DNA of 50,456 bases from Candidatus Brocadia sp. (GTDB lineage Bacteria > Planctomycetota > Brocadiia > Brocadiales > Brocadiaceae): the NCBI GenBank assembly GCA_011525665.1, contig WYAU01000053.1, positions 1-50,456 of the forward strand. The letters are read 5' to 3'. Positions within the stretch are counted from its first letter, which is position 1; each line of letters opens with the position of its first letter. The translations under genes and the position numbers were made by a program. The notes below the pieces were generated by a model. That model made no database searches and had not been told where the DNA came from. It saw only the letters and a program-made list of their open reading frames with translations. Positions 5,461 to 46,692 of this stretch are shown piece after piece.

Positions 5461-5584
5461 GCAAATAGTGCAGCATCGCCGCAATCAAAATAACCACCCC
5501 TCTTTCCCCTCCTTCGCAAGCTTACAGTTGGGCAAAAATTGGCTGGACAAAATAACAGTAAACTGATTATGTAACGTGCACGCC

Positions 5585-5627
5585 AACCCCCTGAATCCCC
5601 CTTAGAAACTAGGGGGCGAAGGGGGTT
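5585..5627. repeat. nested C-rich palindromic repeat
   Basis: Outer arms AACCCCCT/AGGGGGTT enclose an inner hairpin CCCCCT-TAGAAACT-AGGGGG. It follows leuS and, with TTGTATTTT after the stem, may also act as its terminator. The rest of 5461-5842 holds a related C-rich stretch near 5495 and the ferredoxin terminator; I see no gene there. Confidence 0.6.
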
Positions 5628-5770
5628 GTATTTTACACCCATTTCAAATATAGGTTGAACTGTATATTTTGACAAGGCGTATTTTGTGAACTATACGCCA
5701 AAACCCTTGAATAATTGGGTATTTCCTGCCATAAACTTGTCCAGCAAAAAATTGTCCAACAGTTATACTA

Positions 5771-22385: not shown

Positions 22386-23984
22386 TTACATCGATCCGGT
22401 ACTGTACCATTTTTTCAATTTATTTCTCGCCACGATAGCCGTAAGGTTCAGCACGAGCACCGTGAAGAGCAAAACAAGGGTTGTGGTATAAACCATGGGA
22501 ATGGCAGCTTCCACGTTGGGTGATTGAAAGCCGACATCGTAAATATGAAATCCCAGGTGCATAAATTTTCTCTCCAGATGGATATAGGGAAAGTGCCCGT
22601 CAATCGGCAGGGAGGGAGCCAGCTTCACGACGCCGGTAATCATCAGGGGCGCAACCTCTCCGGCAGCCCGTGCCATAGCCAGGATGGTGCCCGTAAGTAT
22701 GCCGGGGGTAGCCTGGGGGATCACCACTTTCAAGAGCGTTTCAATCTTTGTGGCACCGAGCGCATAAGAACCCTCCCGCAGGGACATGGGAACGGCCGAG
22801 AGACCCTCTTCCGTTGCCACAACAACCACGGGCACCGTCAGGAGCGCCAGGGTAAGCGACGCCCATAAAATCCCCCCTGTTCCATACGTAGGCGTTGGCA
22901 GCGACTCAGGAAAAAATAATTTGTCTATGCCTCCGCCGATAAAATAGATGAAAAATCCGAGGCCAAAGACACCAAAGACGATTGACGGCACCCCCGCCAG
23001 GTTACTCACCGATATCCTGACAAGCCTGGCGATAAAATTATCGCTGGCATATTCTTTGAGGTATACTGCCGTCAGTACACCGAGCGGGACAACGGCAATG
23101 CTCATGATCAGCACCATCATAACCGTCCCAAATATAGCGGGAAACACGCCACCTTCCGTATTTGCCTCCCGCGGTTCACCCCAGATAAACTCCCAGAATT
23201 TTGCTGAATAAAAGCCCATTTTGGCAAAAACTCCCATCTCGTTTGGCGCTGAGACACGGATGATCTGAAAAACGGGCAAAATCTTTTCCCTGCCGTCCGC
23301 AAGGAGCACAACAACCTCTTTCTCCCTTGCCTTTGCATAAAGCCCGGCAAGGGTGTTTTCTCTTTCCCGGTAGATTGTTTCCAGACGCTCCATGCCGGCC
23401 GTTACGGCGGCCACTTTTTTCTGAATTTTTTCGGTCGGCTGCAGGCATGCAAGACGCTTCAATTCAAGGCGGGATTTTTCCATCCGGTAATTTATATCGC
23501 CAATTTCTTTTTTCTCAACGTACCGTATCTTTTTGTAAAGGGCCCGGCTCTCTTTGAGCAATGGCGCCAGGCCATTGAATCTCAGGGGTTTAACACCGTC
23601 ATCCTGTCTTAAACCGTGCAAAAAGCCATACATATTGCCCCATTCCCGTCTTTCAAAAGCCAACGCATGCGGGGGGTAGTCCCGGGATACAACATCTGCG
23701 TCGTCTATCCACCTGAAATCCATTCCGTAGACATCCCTGTTACCAACCTTTAATTTTGTCCGGGAAGCGTCTTTTTGATGGGGAATGGACTCCTTCTTTG
23801 CAACTTCTCCCATAACTACCTCACCGTCCCGAAGGGTAAACTGAACGATCGTGCGGGGCCAGAAGATGCCGAATCCATTGACCATAATCAGCACAATTAA
23901 ACCACATATCATCAGGAGACAGACTGTCAGCGTTCCCGCGGTCAGCCATATATAAGGATTTCCGGTTCTAAAAAGTTTTTTCAT
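22386..23984 (-). CDS. pstA: phosphate ABC transporter permease PstA, enlarged
   Basis: Inner-membrane permease subunit of the Pst phosphate importer. The conserved permease part (about 285-532) has the EAA-type loop PMSLREGSYALGATKIETLLKVVIPQ (split across about 398-423) and ends with VARNKLKKWY. It is 532 residues, against about 295 for E. coli PstA. The excess is an N-terminal membrane helix (about 14-36) plus some 230 periplasmic residues, including a Lys/Glu-rich coiled-coil segment (about 150-215). Enlarged PstA/PstC pairs also occur in Pseudomonas, so this is a known variant. Its start overlaps the pstC stop by four bases (ATGA), indicating translational coupling. Confidence 0.92.
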   Translation of the reverse strand: MKKLFRTGNPYIWLTAGTLTVCLLMICGLIVLIMVNGFGIFWPRTIVQFTLRDGEVVMGEVAKKESIPHQKDASRTKLKVGNRDVYGMDFRWIDDADVVSRDYPPHALAFERREWGNMYGFLHGLRQDDGVKPLRFNGLAPLLKESRALYKKIRYVEKKEIGDINYRMEKSRLELKRLACLQPTEKIQKKVAAVTAGMERLETIYRERENTLAGLYAKAREKEVVVLLADGREKILPVFQIIRVSAPNEMGVFAKMGFYSAKFWEFIWGEPREANTEGGVFPAIFGTVMMVLIMSIAVVPLGVLTAVYLKEYASDNFIARLVRISVSNLAGVPSIVFGVFGLGFFIYFIGGGIDKLFFPESLPTPTYGTGGILWASLTLALLTVPVVVVATEEGLSAVPMSLREGSYALGATKIETLLKVVIPQATPGILTGTILAMARAAGEVAPLMITGVVKLAPSLPIDGHFPYIHLERKFMHLGFHIYDVGFQSPNVEAAIPMVYTTTLVLLFTVLVLNLTAIVARNKLKKWYSTGSM

Positions 23985-26512
23985 AGCTTGCTGTACCTGA
24001 GCCTCATCCTTTGTCTTACCATTTCCGCCACGGTATTAACAACGAAGGTTGTCACAAAAAGGAGCAACGCTGCGAAAAACAGCACACGATAGAGCGTTCC
24101 TCCCAAAGGCGCCTCCGGTATCTCAACCGCTATATTTGCCGAAAGCGCCCGGAAACCATTGAATAAATTCCAGTCCATAATGGGGGTGTTGCCGGTGGCC
24201 ATAAGCACGATCATCGTTTCGCCCACCGCCCGACCGAATCCGATCATGATGGCTGAAAAAATTCCCGGACTTGCAGTGGGTAAAACCACCCTGACAGCCG
24301 TCTGCCAGGGGGTAGCTCCGAGCGCAAGCGACGCAGACCTCAGGCTGTTGGGGACATTGCTCATGGCATCTTCCGATATGGTAAAGATAATGGGTATTAC
24401 GGCAAATCCCATGGCAACACCCACGACAACTGCGTTTCTCTGGTCATACTGCAACCCGAGGATATTTGAAATCCACTCCCGGTAATCGCCTCCCATAAAG
24501 AAGGATTCAAAGGCGCCGCCGAACCGGACAGACACATATACCGCCCCGATAAGAAAAGGTATTAAAACAAGTGCCTCTGTTCCATACCGGTACAAGCCCT
24601 TTCCGAATACCGGCAGGATCTTCCAGATAACAAGGGCTATGACAATGGAAAGGGTAATGAAAAACGGCATGATGATGATTGCAGGAAATATTCTCTCCAT
24701 TAAGGGCGCAAGCCAGAGTCCGGCGAGAAAACCAAGAATGACGCTGGGAAGCGCCGCCATGATTTCAATAACAGGCTTTATGATTTTCAGGGAATTGTGG
24801 AGAAACTGGGATGTATAGAGTGCGGCAAAGATGCCAATAGGCACGGCAATAATTAAAGCATAGAGTGTACCTTTAATCGTCCCGAAGATCAACGGCACGA
24901 GGCTCAGCTTCGGTTCAAAATCATCCGTCCCGCCGGTGGACTGCCAGATAAATTCCGGCTCTTCGTATCCCTCGTACCACACCGGCCCAAACAGGGTTTT
25001 TAAGGTCGTTTCCGGGTGCGGATTTGAAATGGTCCATTGAAAGAGGCGGTTACCCGCATCGGCCACCAGAATACCGTTGGCCTTTGGCGAAAAAGCAACC
25101 GATGCCGGGACAGATTTTATCCCGATGTTTAAAAGCGTCTGTTCGGAGGTTGCGTGATTGAGGTGGATCATTCCATCCGCTGCCGCTGTAACAAAACCCT
25201 TATCCCTCATGGATGGAACAATTGCGGTAACCGGAGCGCCATGCGATGCAAGGGTATGCACCTTCTTCAGCGCCCAGCCCGAGGGCGATACCTCATCCCT
25301 TACCTGCATCCATACCCTCACTCCGCCGCCGGCATCGCCAATGACAAGCGAAACGTCACCCAGCAAAAAACCTAATGCTGTAATTGCTTTTTCGGACGCC
25401 CTTACCCTTTCTGCAAGAAGGGGATTGTTTCTGTCCCTCACATTTATGTGGAAGACCTCACCCGAAGATGTTCCCACGTAAAGATTTTCCAGAAAAAGAT
25501 CAAGCGCCAGGGCGGTTATTTCCCGTGTGTTTTCCTCTGCCGCTTCTGTCAAAGGCATCGGGTTGTGGGATACAAGCTGTATGTCATGCCGTGGATTTCC
25601 TCCCTTTTGCGGGGGGATGTTCTTATCCCCGGATGATTTCAAAAAGGCTCTGTCGCGGCGATGCTGCATGACGATATCGGTAATGTCCTTTTTGAAATCT
25701 TTTCTTTCTCCCTCGCCAAAAAGCGACCGCTCTGTCTCAGAGGATATGAGCATCAGCCTTTCATCTTCCGTGAGGACCGCTGTAACCGTTACCCCTTCGT
25801 CTCTCCGGGAAACAACACACCGGATACCATCCCCCTCAGCGGGAACCTGTACCGTTTCCATCTCCGCTATCTCCGGCTGTATAAGCCTTTTCTCTTGATC
25901 AAACGATTCAGAAAAATCAACGGATACCGTTACAAGCCTGCCGTCATTCGTTCCGAAAACAAGCCGATTGTTGTCTTTACTAACCGACGTTATATAACGA
26001 CCCTGTGAATCTGTTTTTCGGGAAAAAGTTTTCCCGTCCCCTTTATCCTTCCCGTGAGAAGAGGGGTCAATTTGATTACGGCCTGCTCTGTCTTCCCCGT
26101 GCGCCGAGTGGACAATTCCCGCATGACCGGCCGCGTTTCCTTCCTGCAAAGAGGAAGAATGGGGGGATAAATTCATTGCATCCCCCCGGCGTGTGAGAGA
26201 AGAAGCGCGAAGACCCGCAATGCGATGTTTTTTCACGATCTCTCCGTTTGAAAGGGAGATAAACTCTATAACGCCATCGCTGTAAACGGCATAGGCGACC
26301 TCCTGGTGGTTATCTACTCCTATGGAAACCACCTTACCCTCTAAAGTATAGGTATTTTCGTCCGTTACCCTGGCGCCCTGTAAGAGCGGATAAACCTCCA
26401 GAAAAATAAAGAAAAACAAGGCAAGGATAACAAAAACAGTAGCCGCGCCACCGAGTGTGATTACCCAGTGGGCGGCCTTATCGGTAAACTTTCTTCTTTT
26501 TTGACTTTTCAT
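23981..26512 (-). CDS. pstC: phosphate ABC transporter permease PstC with a large propeller-like periplasmic domain
   Basis: Inner-membrane permease partner of PstA. After one transmembrane helix (about 18-40) comes about 460 residues of periplasmic sequence with repeated WD40-like strands (ITALALD...LYVGTSSGEVFHI, ITALGFL...VIGDAGGGVRVW, VTAIVPS...VTAAADGMIHL), so probably a beta-propeller. The permease (about 535-843) carries the EAA loop SLRSASLALGATPWQTA. At 843 residues it exceeds both E. coli PstC (319) and the enlarged Pseudomonas type (about 680, from memory). At least three low-complexity inserts in the propeller (about residues 108-122, 148-160 and 298-308) are translated palindromic repeats. 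The gene starts 4 bases after pstS ends. The extra domain may sense or tether a periplasmic partner. Confidence 0.9.
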   Translation of the reverse strand: MKSQKRRKFTDKAAHWVITLGGAATVFVILALFFFIFLEVYPLLQGARVTDENTYTLEGKVVSIGVDNHQEVAYAVYSDGVIEFISLSNGEIVKKHRIAGLRASSLTRRGDAMNLSPHSSSLQEGNAAGHAGIVHSAHGEDRAGRNQIDPSSHGKDKGDGKTFSRKTDSQGRYITSVSKDNNRLVFGTNDGRLVTVSVDFSESFDQEKRLIQPEIAEMETVQVPAEGDGIRCVVSRRDEGVTVTAVLTEDERLMLISSETERSLFGEGERKDFKKDITDIVMQHRRDRAFLKSSGDKNIPPQKGGNPRHDIQLVSHNPMPLTEAAEENTREITALALDLFLENLYVGTSSGEVFHINVRDRNNPLLAERVRASEKAITALGFLLGDVSLVIGDAGGGVRVWMQVRDEVSPSGWALKKVHTLASHGAPVTAIVPSMRDKGFVTAAADGMIHLNHATSEQTLLNIGIKSVPASVAFSPKANGILVADAGNRLFQWTISNPHPETTLKTLFGPVWYEGYEEPEFIWQSTGGTDDFEPKLSLVPLIFGTIKGTLYALIIAVPIGIFAALYTSQFLHNSLKIIKPVIEIMAALPSVILGFLAGLWLAPLMERIFPAIIIMPFFITLSIVIALVIWKILPVFGKGLYRYGTEALVLIPFLIGAVYVSVRFGGAFESFFMGGDYREWISNILGLQYDQRNAVVVGVAMGFAVIPIIFTISEDAMSNVPNSLRSASLALGATPWQTAVRVVLPTASPGIFSAIMIGFGRAVGETMIVLMATGNTPIMDWNLFNGFRALSANIAVEIPEAPLGGTLYRVLFFAALLLFVTTFVVNTVAEMVRQRMRLRYSKL
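25595..25619. repeat. palindromic repeat inside pstC (first)
   Basis: ATCCCCCCGCAAAAGGGAGG-type palindrome on the coding strand, translated as NIPPQKGGN. It resembles the C-rich interspersed repeats found between genes in this window and appears as a polar insert in the PstC periplasmic domain. Confidence 0.5.
26037..26067. repeat. palindromic repeat inside pstC (second)
   Basis: CCCC...GGGG arms enclosing CTTCTCACGGGAAGGATAAA on the coding strand, translated as DPSSHGKDKGDGK. It is in frame and adds a hydrophilic loop between propeller strands. Confidence 0.45.
26161..26187. repeat. palindromic repeat inside pstC (third)
   Basis: GGGGGGAT and ATCCCCCC-like arms flank a 13-bp spacer, translated on the minus strand as RRGDAMNLSPHSS. 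It is in frame, in the same low-complexity part of PstC as the other two copies. Confidence 0.5.
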
Positions 26513-38903: not shown

Positions 38904-38941
38904 TTTGCTTTACTTGATATATATATATCAAGTAAAGCAAA
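38904..38941. repeat. 38-bp perfect palindrome
   Basis: TTTGCTTTACTTGATATAT followed by its exact reverse complement, with no spacer. It is centred on an alternating AT tract, in the gap between the HMA cluster and the PhoX-like gene. The remaining 38489-38996 interval holds no supportable gene. Such a palindrome can bind a dimeric regulator or extrude as a cruciform. Confidence 0.85.
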
Positions 38942-46530: not shown

Positions 46531-46692
46531 TACACAACCCCCTTGCCCCCTTTTTTAAGGGGGATTTCAATTAAGTTTTTAATGGGGATAGAACAGGAAG
46601 TTTTCCTTTACTAAGGAGAGCATTAAGTTCCCTTAACAAAGGGGAAAATTTTAAAGTCCCCCTTAATAAAGGGATATAAGGGGGTTGTTGTT
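46531..46692. repeat. MITE-like element with C-rich inverted ends
   Basis: The left end reads ACACAACCCCCTTGCCCCC then TTTTTTAAGGGGGATTT. The right end is its inverted counterpart, with AAAGTCCCCCTTAATAAAGG then GATATAAGGGGGTTGT. Between them lies another CCCTTAACAAAGGGG dyad. With inverted ends and no coding capacity this looks like a short non-autonomous element or compound repeat, related to those at 2827 and 5585. The rest of 46523-46891 shows nothing else. Confidence 0.6.

Follow-up and report, generated by a model that had tools for sequence, protein, structure and literature searches.

A dispersed palindromic repeat of Brocadiaceae lies in frame within the phosphate permease gene pstC

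Palindromic DNA within a coding sequence raises the question of whether a dispersed repeat has entered the gene or whether the palindromes arose there by chance. The question is posed here by pstC, located in a window of 50,456 nt (the whole stretch of DNA that was analysed, contig C44) from the 3.63 Mb genome, in 111 contigs, of a Candidatus Brocadia-like member of the Planctomycetota. An earlier note on this DNA had read three low-complexity segments of the PstC protein as independent insertions of a CCCC/GGGG palindrome, translated in frame as in Rickettsia, and had held them partly responsible for the length of the protein. The analysis presented here leads us to conclude that pstC very probably carries insertions of a small repeat element dispersed across the Brocadiaceae, most likely as a tolerated genomic parasite. 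The element recurs in the genome, is found sense and in frame in pstC, and differs between species in whether it occupies a given exact site.

Gene calls were based on ORF length and Pfam, which for the pstC product yields BPD_transp_1 (E 5e-14) together with WD40-type matches; a Foldseek search with the PstC model leads to WD40 propellers as well. The gene is adjoined by permease, ATPase and phosphate-binding-like genes, and its named relatives come from Candidatus Brocadia, Loosdrechtia, Kuenenia and Scalindua. The length of PstC is mainly that of its WD40-like propeller, across which Marinobacterium homologues (758 and 769 aa) also align, and the part of the length that can be credited to the inserts, as proposed earlier, comes to roughly 60-100 of the 843 residues. 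A second pstC-like copy, broken by many stops, was observed in a related genome (G003:C1:457574-459809) about 20 kb from the intact pstC.

The three palindromes drawn in the earlier note are all present in pstC and in frame (Table 1). As such they are unremarkable, since 22 distinct inverted repeats (arms of at least 8 bp, loops up to 30) occur in the 50 kb window, and by this window-wide count palindrome statistics alone do not place those of pstC above chance. In two of them, 26161-26187 and 25613-25630, an element arm is joined to a neighbouring stretch in a palindrome that is not common to relatives, and on sequence grounds these are coincidental pairings. The third, 26019-26036, had also been considered a chance palindrome, as relatives have similar residues on non-palindromic DNA; that reading was dropped, the palindrome being the tail of a full element. 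It is the only one of the three for which the same residues (TFSQKT) are found on non-palindromic DNA, and these residues belong to the element tail. Across the genome, ATCCCCC...GGGGGAT occurs at 11 places, against 0 for the backward control, and GGGGGAT...ATCCCCC, the arm order as first drawn, at 2 places against 1; these counts pointed to a genuine repeat whose arms stand in the reverse order. Other palindromes of the window include a perfect one with 19-bp arms, TTTGCTTTACTTGATATAT/ATATATCAAGTAAAGCAAA, at 38904-38941, apart from the element, and C-run/G-run palindromes at 46538-46684 and 5584-5628, which are short and form a related type of their own.

Table 1. Positions of pstC, its insert loops and the associated repeat features in the window.
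Feature	Position	Strand	Evidence or remark
Partial element copy, apart from any long supported gene	5465-5520	+	nhmmer E 1e-12; BLAST; covariance model
pstC, phosphate ABC transporter permease, 843 aa, WD40-like propeller	23981-26512	minus	ORF, Pfam, Foldseek
Insert loop 2, residues 283-327	25532-25666	minus	NIPPQKGGN at 25595-25621; worn copy by orthology
Palindrome, 6-bp arms, loop 6	25613-25630		In pstC, in frame
Putative leader-like remnant ATGCAGCATCGCCGCGAC, loop 2 start	25652-25669	minus	Best local alignment to consensus leader; weak
Full-length element copy, in frame, sense, about AGRNQIDPSSHGKDKGDGKTFSRKTDSQGRYIT	25991-26090	minus	nhmmer and end-to-end alignment
Insert loop 1, residues 106-172	25997-26197	minus	Alignments; AlphaFold pLDDT <50
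Palindrome CGGGAAAA/TTTTCCCG, 8-bp arms, loop 2	26019-26036		Tail of the element; non-palindromic in relatives
Possible worn second core (ATCCCCCCATTCTTCCTCTTTGCAGGAAGG)	26139-26168	minus	Holds one arm of the 26161-26187 palindrome
Palindrome, 8-bp arms, loop 11	26161-26187		In pstC, in frame

The element itself is ~117 bp long, and ~142 bp where the optional inner module ACTTCGTCGTGAGCTCAGTCGAACGATGAA is included. It runs from a leader (GCGCAGCATAGCCGCAACCAAATTGACC) through a nested CCCC/GGGG palindrome (ACCACCCCTCTTTCCCCTCCTTCGCAAGGAGGGGATAAAGGGGAGGT) to a tail hairpin (AAAACTT...AAGTTTT), and RNA folding of the 117 and 142 bp consensus gives nested hairpins of -39.8 and -44.2 kcal/mol, respectively, made of the nested core hairpin and the tail hairpin. 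What stands of the CCCC/GGGG palindrome as the inserted unit is that a dispersed repeat is found in frame; the real unit spans 100-142 bp and includes leader and tail. Nested C-run/G-run palindromes recur in 441 kb of the own genome (window included), and copies agree in their flanks far past the palindrome. The core CCCCTCCTTCGCAAGGAGGGG was found at 14 places in 475 kb with up to 4 mismatches, versus 2 for the reversed control, and the leader CAACCAAATTGACCACCCC at 22 places in the genome with up to 3 mismatches, versus 1 for the reversed pattern. With 40 of 162 candidates scored, BLAST of the element against the own genome yields at least 46 matches. A covariance model built from 12 copies yields at least 78 at E<=0.01 with 150 of 2135 candidates scored; some of these matches are opposite strands of a single palindrome. 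Most copies fall outside long ORFs. Rfam, at gathering score over 65 kb, contains no family that matches the element, a tRNA being the only match.

Under stricter filters the element is present in 44 of 59 genomes of the order and in 32 of 33 of the family (f1, Brocadiaceae); outside the family 12 of 26 genomes match, more weakly (best E 4.5e-10). Loosdrechtia aerotolerans YC1 (G013) shows no match at the stricter filter. A contig of the same assembly (L010/L058) carries a PstC that shares 81% identity with that of the window and falls inside the Brocadia clade, which suggests horizontal transfer or a binning error.

For the identification of copies inside PstC, an nhmmer DNA profile was built from 12 copies of the own genome, none of them in pstC. 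It matches the window at 26082-26009 with an E value of 3.3e-7, and the end-to-end alignment of 26090-25991, within which the palindrome 26019-26036 sits, scores 35.5, against a maximum of 21 among 384 control segments (0/384 as good). Neither of the remaining segments resembles the element significantly when taken alone, with 12 of 388 controls as good for 26168-26139, a possible worn second core on the left of loop 1, and 93 of 389 for the NIPPQKGGN segment of loop 2. A copy in loop 2 of the window is nonetheless supported because orthologous PstC genes have significant copies in the same loop, and from this orthology we infer an element worn almost beyond recognition. In place of three independent inserts there are thus two insert loops, with one copy proven and the other placed by orthology. 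Among the 30 PstC genes compared, 10 match the profile at E<1e-3, always on the coding strand and always within loop 1 (L009, L013, L027) or loop 2 (L010, L011, L012, L014, L015, L017, L022), and no match at this threshold lies elsewhere in any of the 30. L011 and L017 hold the long form of the element, translated as PPPSQKGDFVVSTQSNNDGGGK and HSQGGDFVVSGQSNDEGEGGK. The aligned span of loop 1 is 78 aa in the window versus 10 aa in most relatives, five outgroup genomes included, and that of loop 2 is 55 aa versus 21-24 aa in the five outgroup genomes. Together, alignments and profile matches show that relatives either have or lack inserts at these same two loops, which is the comparison that the earlier note had called for.

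These same loops could be pictured as hypervariable low-complexity linkers, with a length driven by slippage and with G/C runs that give palindromes by chance. Their lengths do vary freely across species, the palindromes as drawn occur at chance frequency, and two of the three window segments are not significant against the element. Such an origin is nevertheless very improbable: a profile made of copies at unrelated loci matches one loop of the window from end to end and, among the PstC genes, matches only at two loops; sister species have the long form, whose inner module is not repetitive; and the same element is found in PriA, SelA and other proteins. The profile matches go most of the way to refuting slippage.

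Concerning structure, the AlphaFold model of PstC (mean pLDDT 69; 23 sequences) falls below 50 at residues 104-169 and 285-328, which are flanked by strands near 90; values below 50 are also observed at 523-538 and 768-789. Since both loops have low pLDDT between strands of the WD40-like propeller, the inserts are predicted to be disordered loops and not propeller blades, so that an alignment of the segments to blades, which would have spoken against insertion, is not what the model suggests.

The search for similar inserts in the other proteins of the genome was successful. In-frame copies, 15 in all, lie in eleven further ORFs of 394-1132 aa, which together with pstC makes 12 hosts and 16 copies. 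Ten of the eleven were scanned and named by Pfam: a U32 peptidase with DUF3656 (three copies), a spermidine-synthase-like protein, YfhO (two copies), two TPR proteins, a glycosyltransferase 9 (GT9) whose alignment is too weak to place the insert exactly, PriA (two copies), SelA, a P-type ATPase and a radical SAM protein. The eleventh, L254, we take from its motifs to be a UvrD/RecB-type helicase. Not counted as hosts were an ORF of 144-155 aa in L157/L257 and ORFs below 240 aa (L174, L176, L212, L222 and one of 133 aa in the window), some of which run antisense to the element. The P-type ATPase aligns with 7qbz to residue 503 and again from residue 551, where the 7qbz chain has 9 residues between, and the alignment of PriA with 4nl4 resumes at residue 329. 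An SPPSQGGD-type core peptide is found in most host proteins, with PPCEGG/PPCKGG in L253 and L254; the L255 copy is read in another register. A local cluster was also observed in the own genome (C97:79500-92700, L249), where TPR, YfhO and spermidine-synthase-like genes within 10 kb contain four copies. It is likely that the Brocadiaceae host a large family of protein-coding palindromic elements of their own, and that this family has entered essential enzymes time and again (PriA, SelA, P-type ATPase, PstC).

Presence and absence among relatives were compared for PstC, PriA, SelA and the U32 protein, with alignments of 18 of 30 loci for PriA (L260-L277), 14 of 30 for SelA (L290-L303) and 22 of 22 for U32. 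The PriA insert, of ~52-90 aa between CKK and QPKPG, is present in 5 of 11 genus genomes (own, G002, G003, G005, G009); the site is precisely empty in the other 6 and in 7 of 7 aligned genomes of other genera. SelA contains an insert in the own genome and varied forms of it in G009, G004, G006 and G010, and lacks it in G001, G007 and G008, and the U32 protein has three variable sites across relatives. In other genera the U32 loops (L337, L326, L327) show different repeat-like peptides, e.g. CFVDAQHDKDKEFSLTNCHSEHSEES, SIVIPLCPLLEKEGWGDLKG and NPPFLKHSPLPPFLKEDQGG, which suggests that several repeat families may invade the same tolerant sites.

Filled and empty sites would also result if the insertion were ancestral and precise deletions, between short repeats at its flanks, had removed it from the species that now lack it. 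Loop 1 of PstC has remnants of intermediate length in L010, L011, L012 and L017, and loop 2 is long throughout the genus, both in agreement with such losses. The empty PriA sites, within and outside the genus, speak against them; an ancestral insertion therefore needs several precise losses, and we consider it unlikely. For loop 1 of PstC, gain and loss look indistinguishable by sequence comparison.

Repeated insertion being our preferred reading, the next point is whether the inserted segments are of use to the protein. In ten pairs of PriA sequences the dN/dS of the insert is 0.45-1.11 versus 0.10-0.15 in the flanks, and in six pairs of PstC that of loop 2 is 0.55-0.96 versus 0.12-0.18. Values so far above those of the flanks indicate little constraint on residues with the frame kept; the inserts evolve near-neutrally. 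The open frame and the dN/dS support translation of the inserts, and the cell probably translates the element as an extra floppy stretch of protein. A selected protein module, such as a flexible linker or an interaction segment kept for its function, could account for the recurrence of the SPPSQGGD-like peptide in unrelated proteins. It could also account for the orientation of the in-gene copies: 14 of 16, pstC included, score best in sense, even though among full-length copies the antisense is open in 19 of 37 and the sense in 15 of 37. The antisense counts exclude a single open frame as the source of the sense bias, since open frames do not account for the excess. The copies in L253 and L254 score higher in antisense (39.1 vs 29.3 and 36.7 vs 32.7 bits). 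Against a function of this kind stand the dN/dS of the PriA inserts and PstC loop 2, nearer neutrality than the flanks, the patchy presence across close species and the majority of copies outside long ORFs; we regard it as highly unlikely.

We infer that the element is or was mobile, and it is probably non-autonomous. Y1/RAYT transposases were rejected as mobiliser, as copies are not enriched beside Y1_Tnp loci (1 of 7 with a copy, 0.5 expected, small numbers). The empty PriA site reads CTTACACAG and the filled one in L261 CTA|GCAG...TTA|CACAG, a single case that is suggestive of a TA duplication. As to MITE features, no transposase, terminal repeat or target duplication was established, and the ends were not matched to an insertion sequence. 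In the mechanism we propose, the element would land in a gene and selection would remove the insertions that break genes. The copies that survive would be those that fall in the surface loops of a protein able to tolerate them and whose length and frame leave the ORF uninterrupted. An inserted copy would then provide a flexible segment rich in Pro, Ser, Gly and Lys, of the SPPSQGGDKGEVK type, which may subsequently drift under little constraint except for the frame. The element is most likely a genomic parasite that is tolerated and not needed for phosphate transport.

The best-known cases of palindromic repeats invading proteins in frame come from the obligate intracellular Rickettsia and Wolbachia. 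If the present reading is true, anammox bacteria, which are not intracellular, offer a system for tracing, from one species to the next, how new protein segments derived from selfish DNA are born and decay, and filled and empty sites, in enzymes with solved relatives, allow a direct test of segment origin, tolerant sites and decay rate. Annotators should be warned that such segments lengthen PstC, PriA and SelA and can mislead alignments and structure predictions. Our literature search, which covered titles and abstract openings, returned no description of this element or of protein-coding palindromes in anammox bacteria. Section 4.2 of a 2024 review treats such a process in other prokaryotes as no more than conceivable (PMC10969869), and intragenic REPs had already been catalogued in 2013 (PMC3733652).

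Three features that mark protein-coding palindromic elements are found here, namely dispersed copies, unrelated in-frame hosts and presence or absence among orthologues (PstC, PriA, SelA, U32). Rickettsia palindromic elements (RPEs; Ogata et al. 2000, 2002) are described, in the relevant parts of two articles, as repeats of ~100-150 bp inside and outside genes, in frame in unrelated conserved proteins whose orthologues differ in their presence (PMC10969869, PMC3767692). By these partial accounts the Brocadiaceae element is similar, being palindromic, ~100-150 bp long, in and out of genes, in frame and variable among orthologues. The central claim of the earlier note, a genomic palindromic repeat in frame inside PstC in the manner of Rickettsia, is borne out by the profile match, the two loops and the other hosts. 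The host differs, a planctomycete with a 3.6 Mb genome instead of obligate intracellular Rickettsiales, and so do the leader-core-tail layout and the optional inner module, the comparison being one of descriptions and not of sequences. Wolbachia palindromic elements (WPE) are reported, in an excerpt of PMC4224334, as in-frame insertions in addA, addB and priA. As far as that excerpt goes the likeness, again one of description, extends to PriA and probably a UvrD/RecB-like helicase as hosts, with sites compared by gene only; the phylum of the host is different. PriA and a probable RecB-type helicase as hosts in both systems would make a striking parallel. GTAG- and CGTC-tagged REPs, in the sections of PMC3733652 that deal with them, are units of 20-40 bp with the tag at one palindrome end, which lie within ORFs of several species, including Thauera and the PVC member Opitutus terrae, many of them in replication and repair genes. 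To the extent of those sections, the Brocadiaceae element is like them a palindromic repeat inside ORFs. Unlike them, it shows no Y1/RAYT association, and its consensus core, ACCACCCC...GGGGAGGT, is without either tag at its ends, CGTC occurring within the optional module only. Since it works like RPE, WPE and intragenic REPs and does so without the REP tag, the element represents a new family within a kind already known, set apart from RPEs by description.
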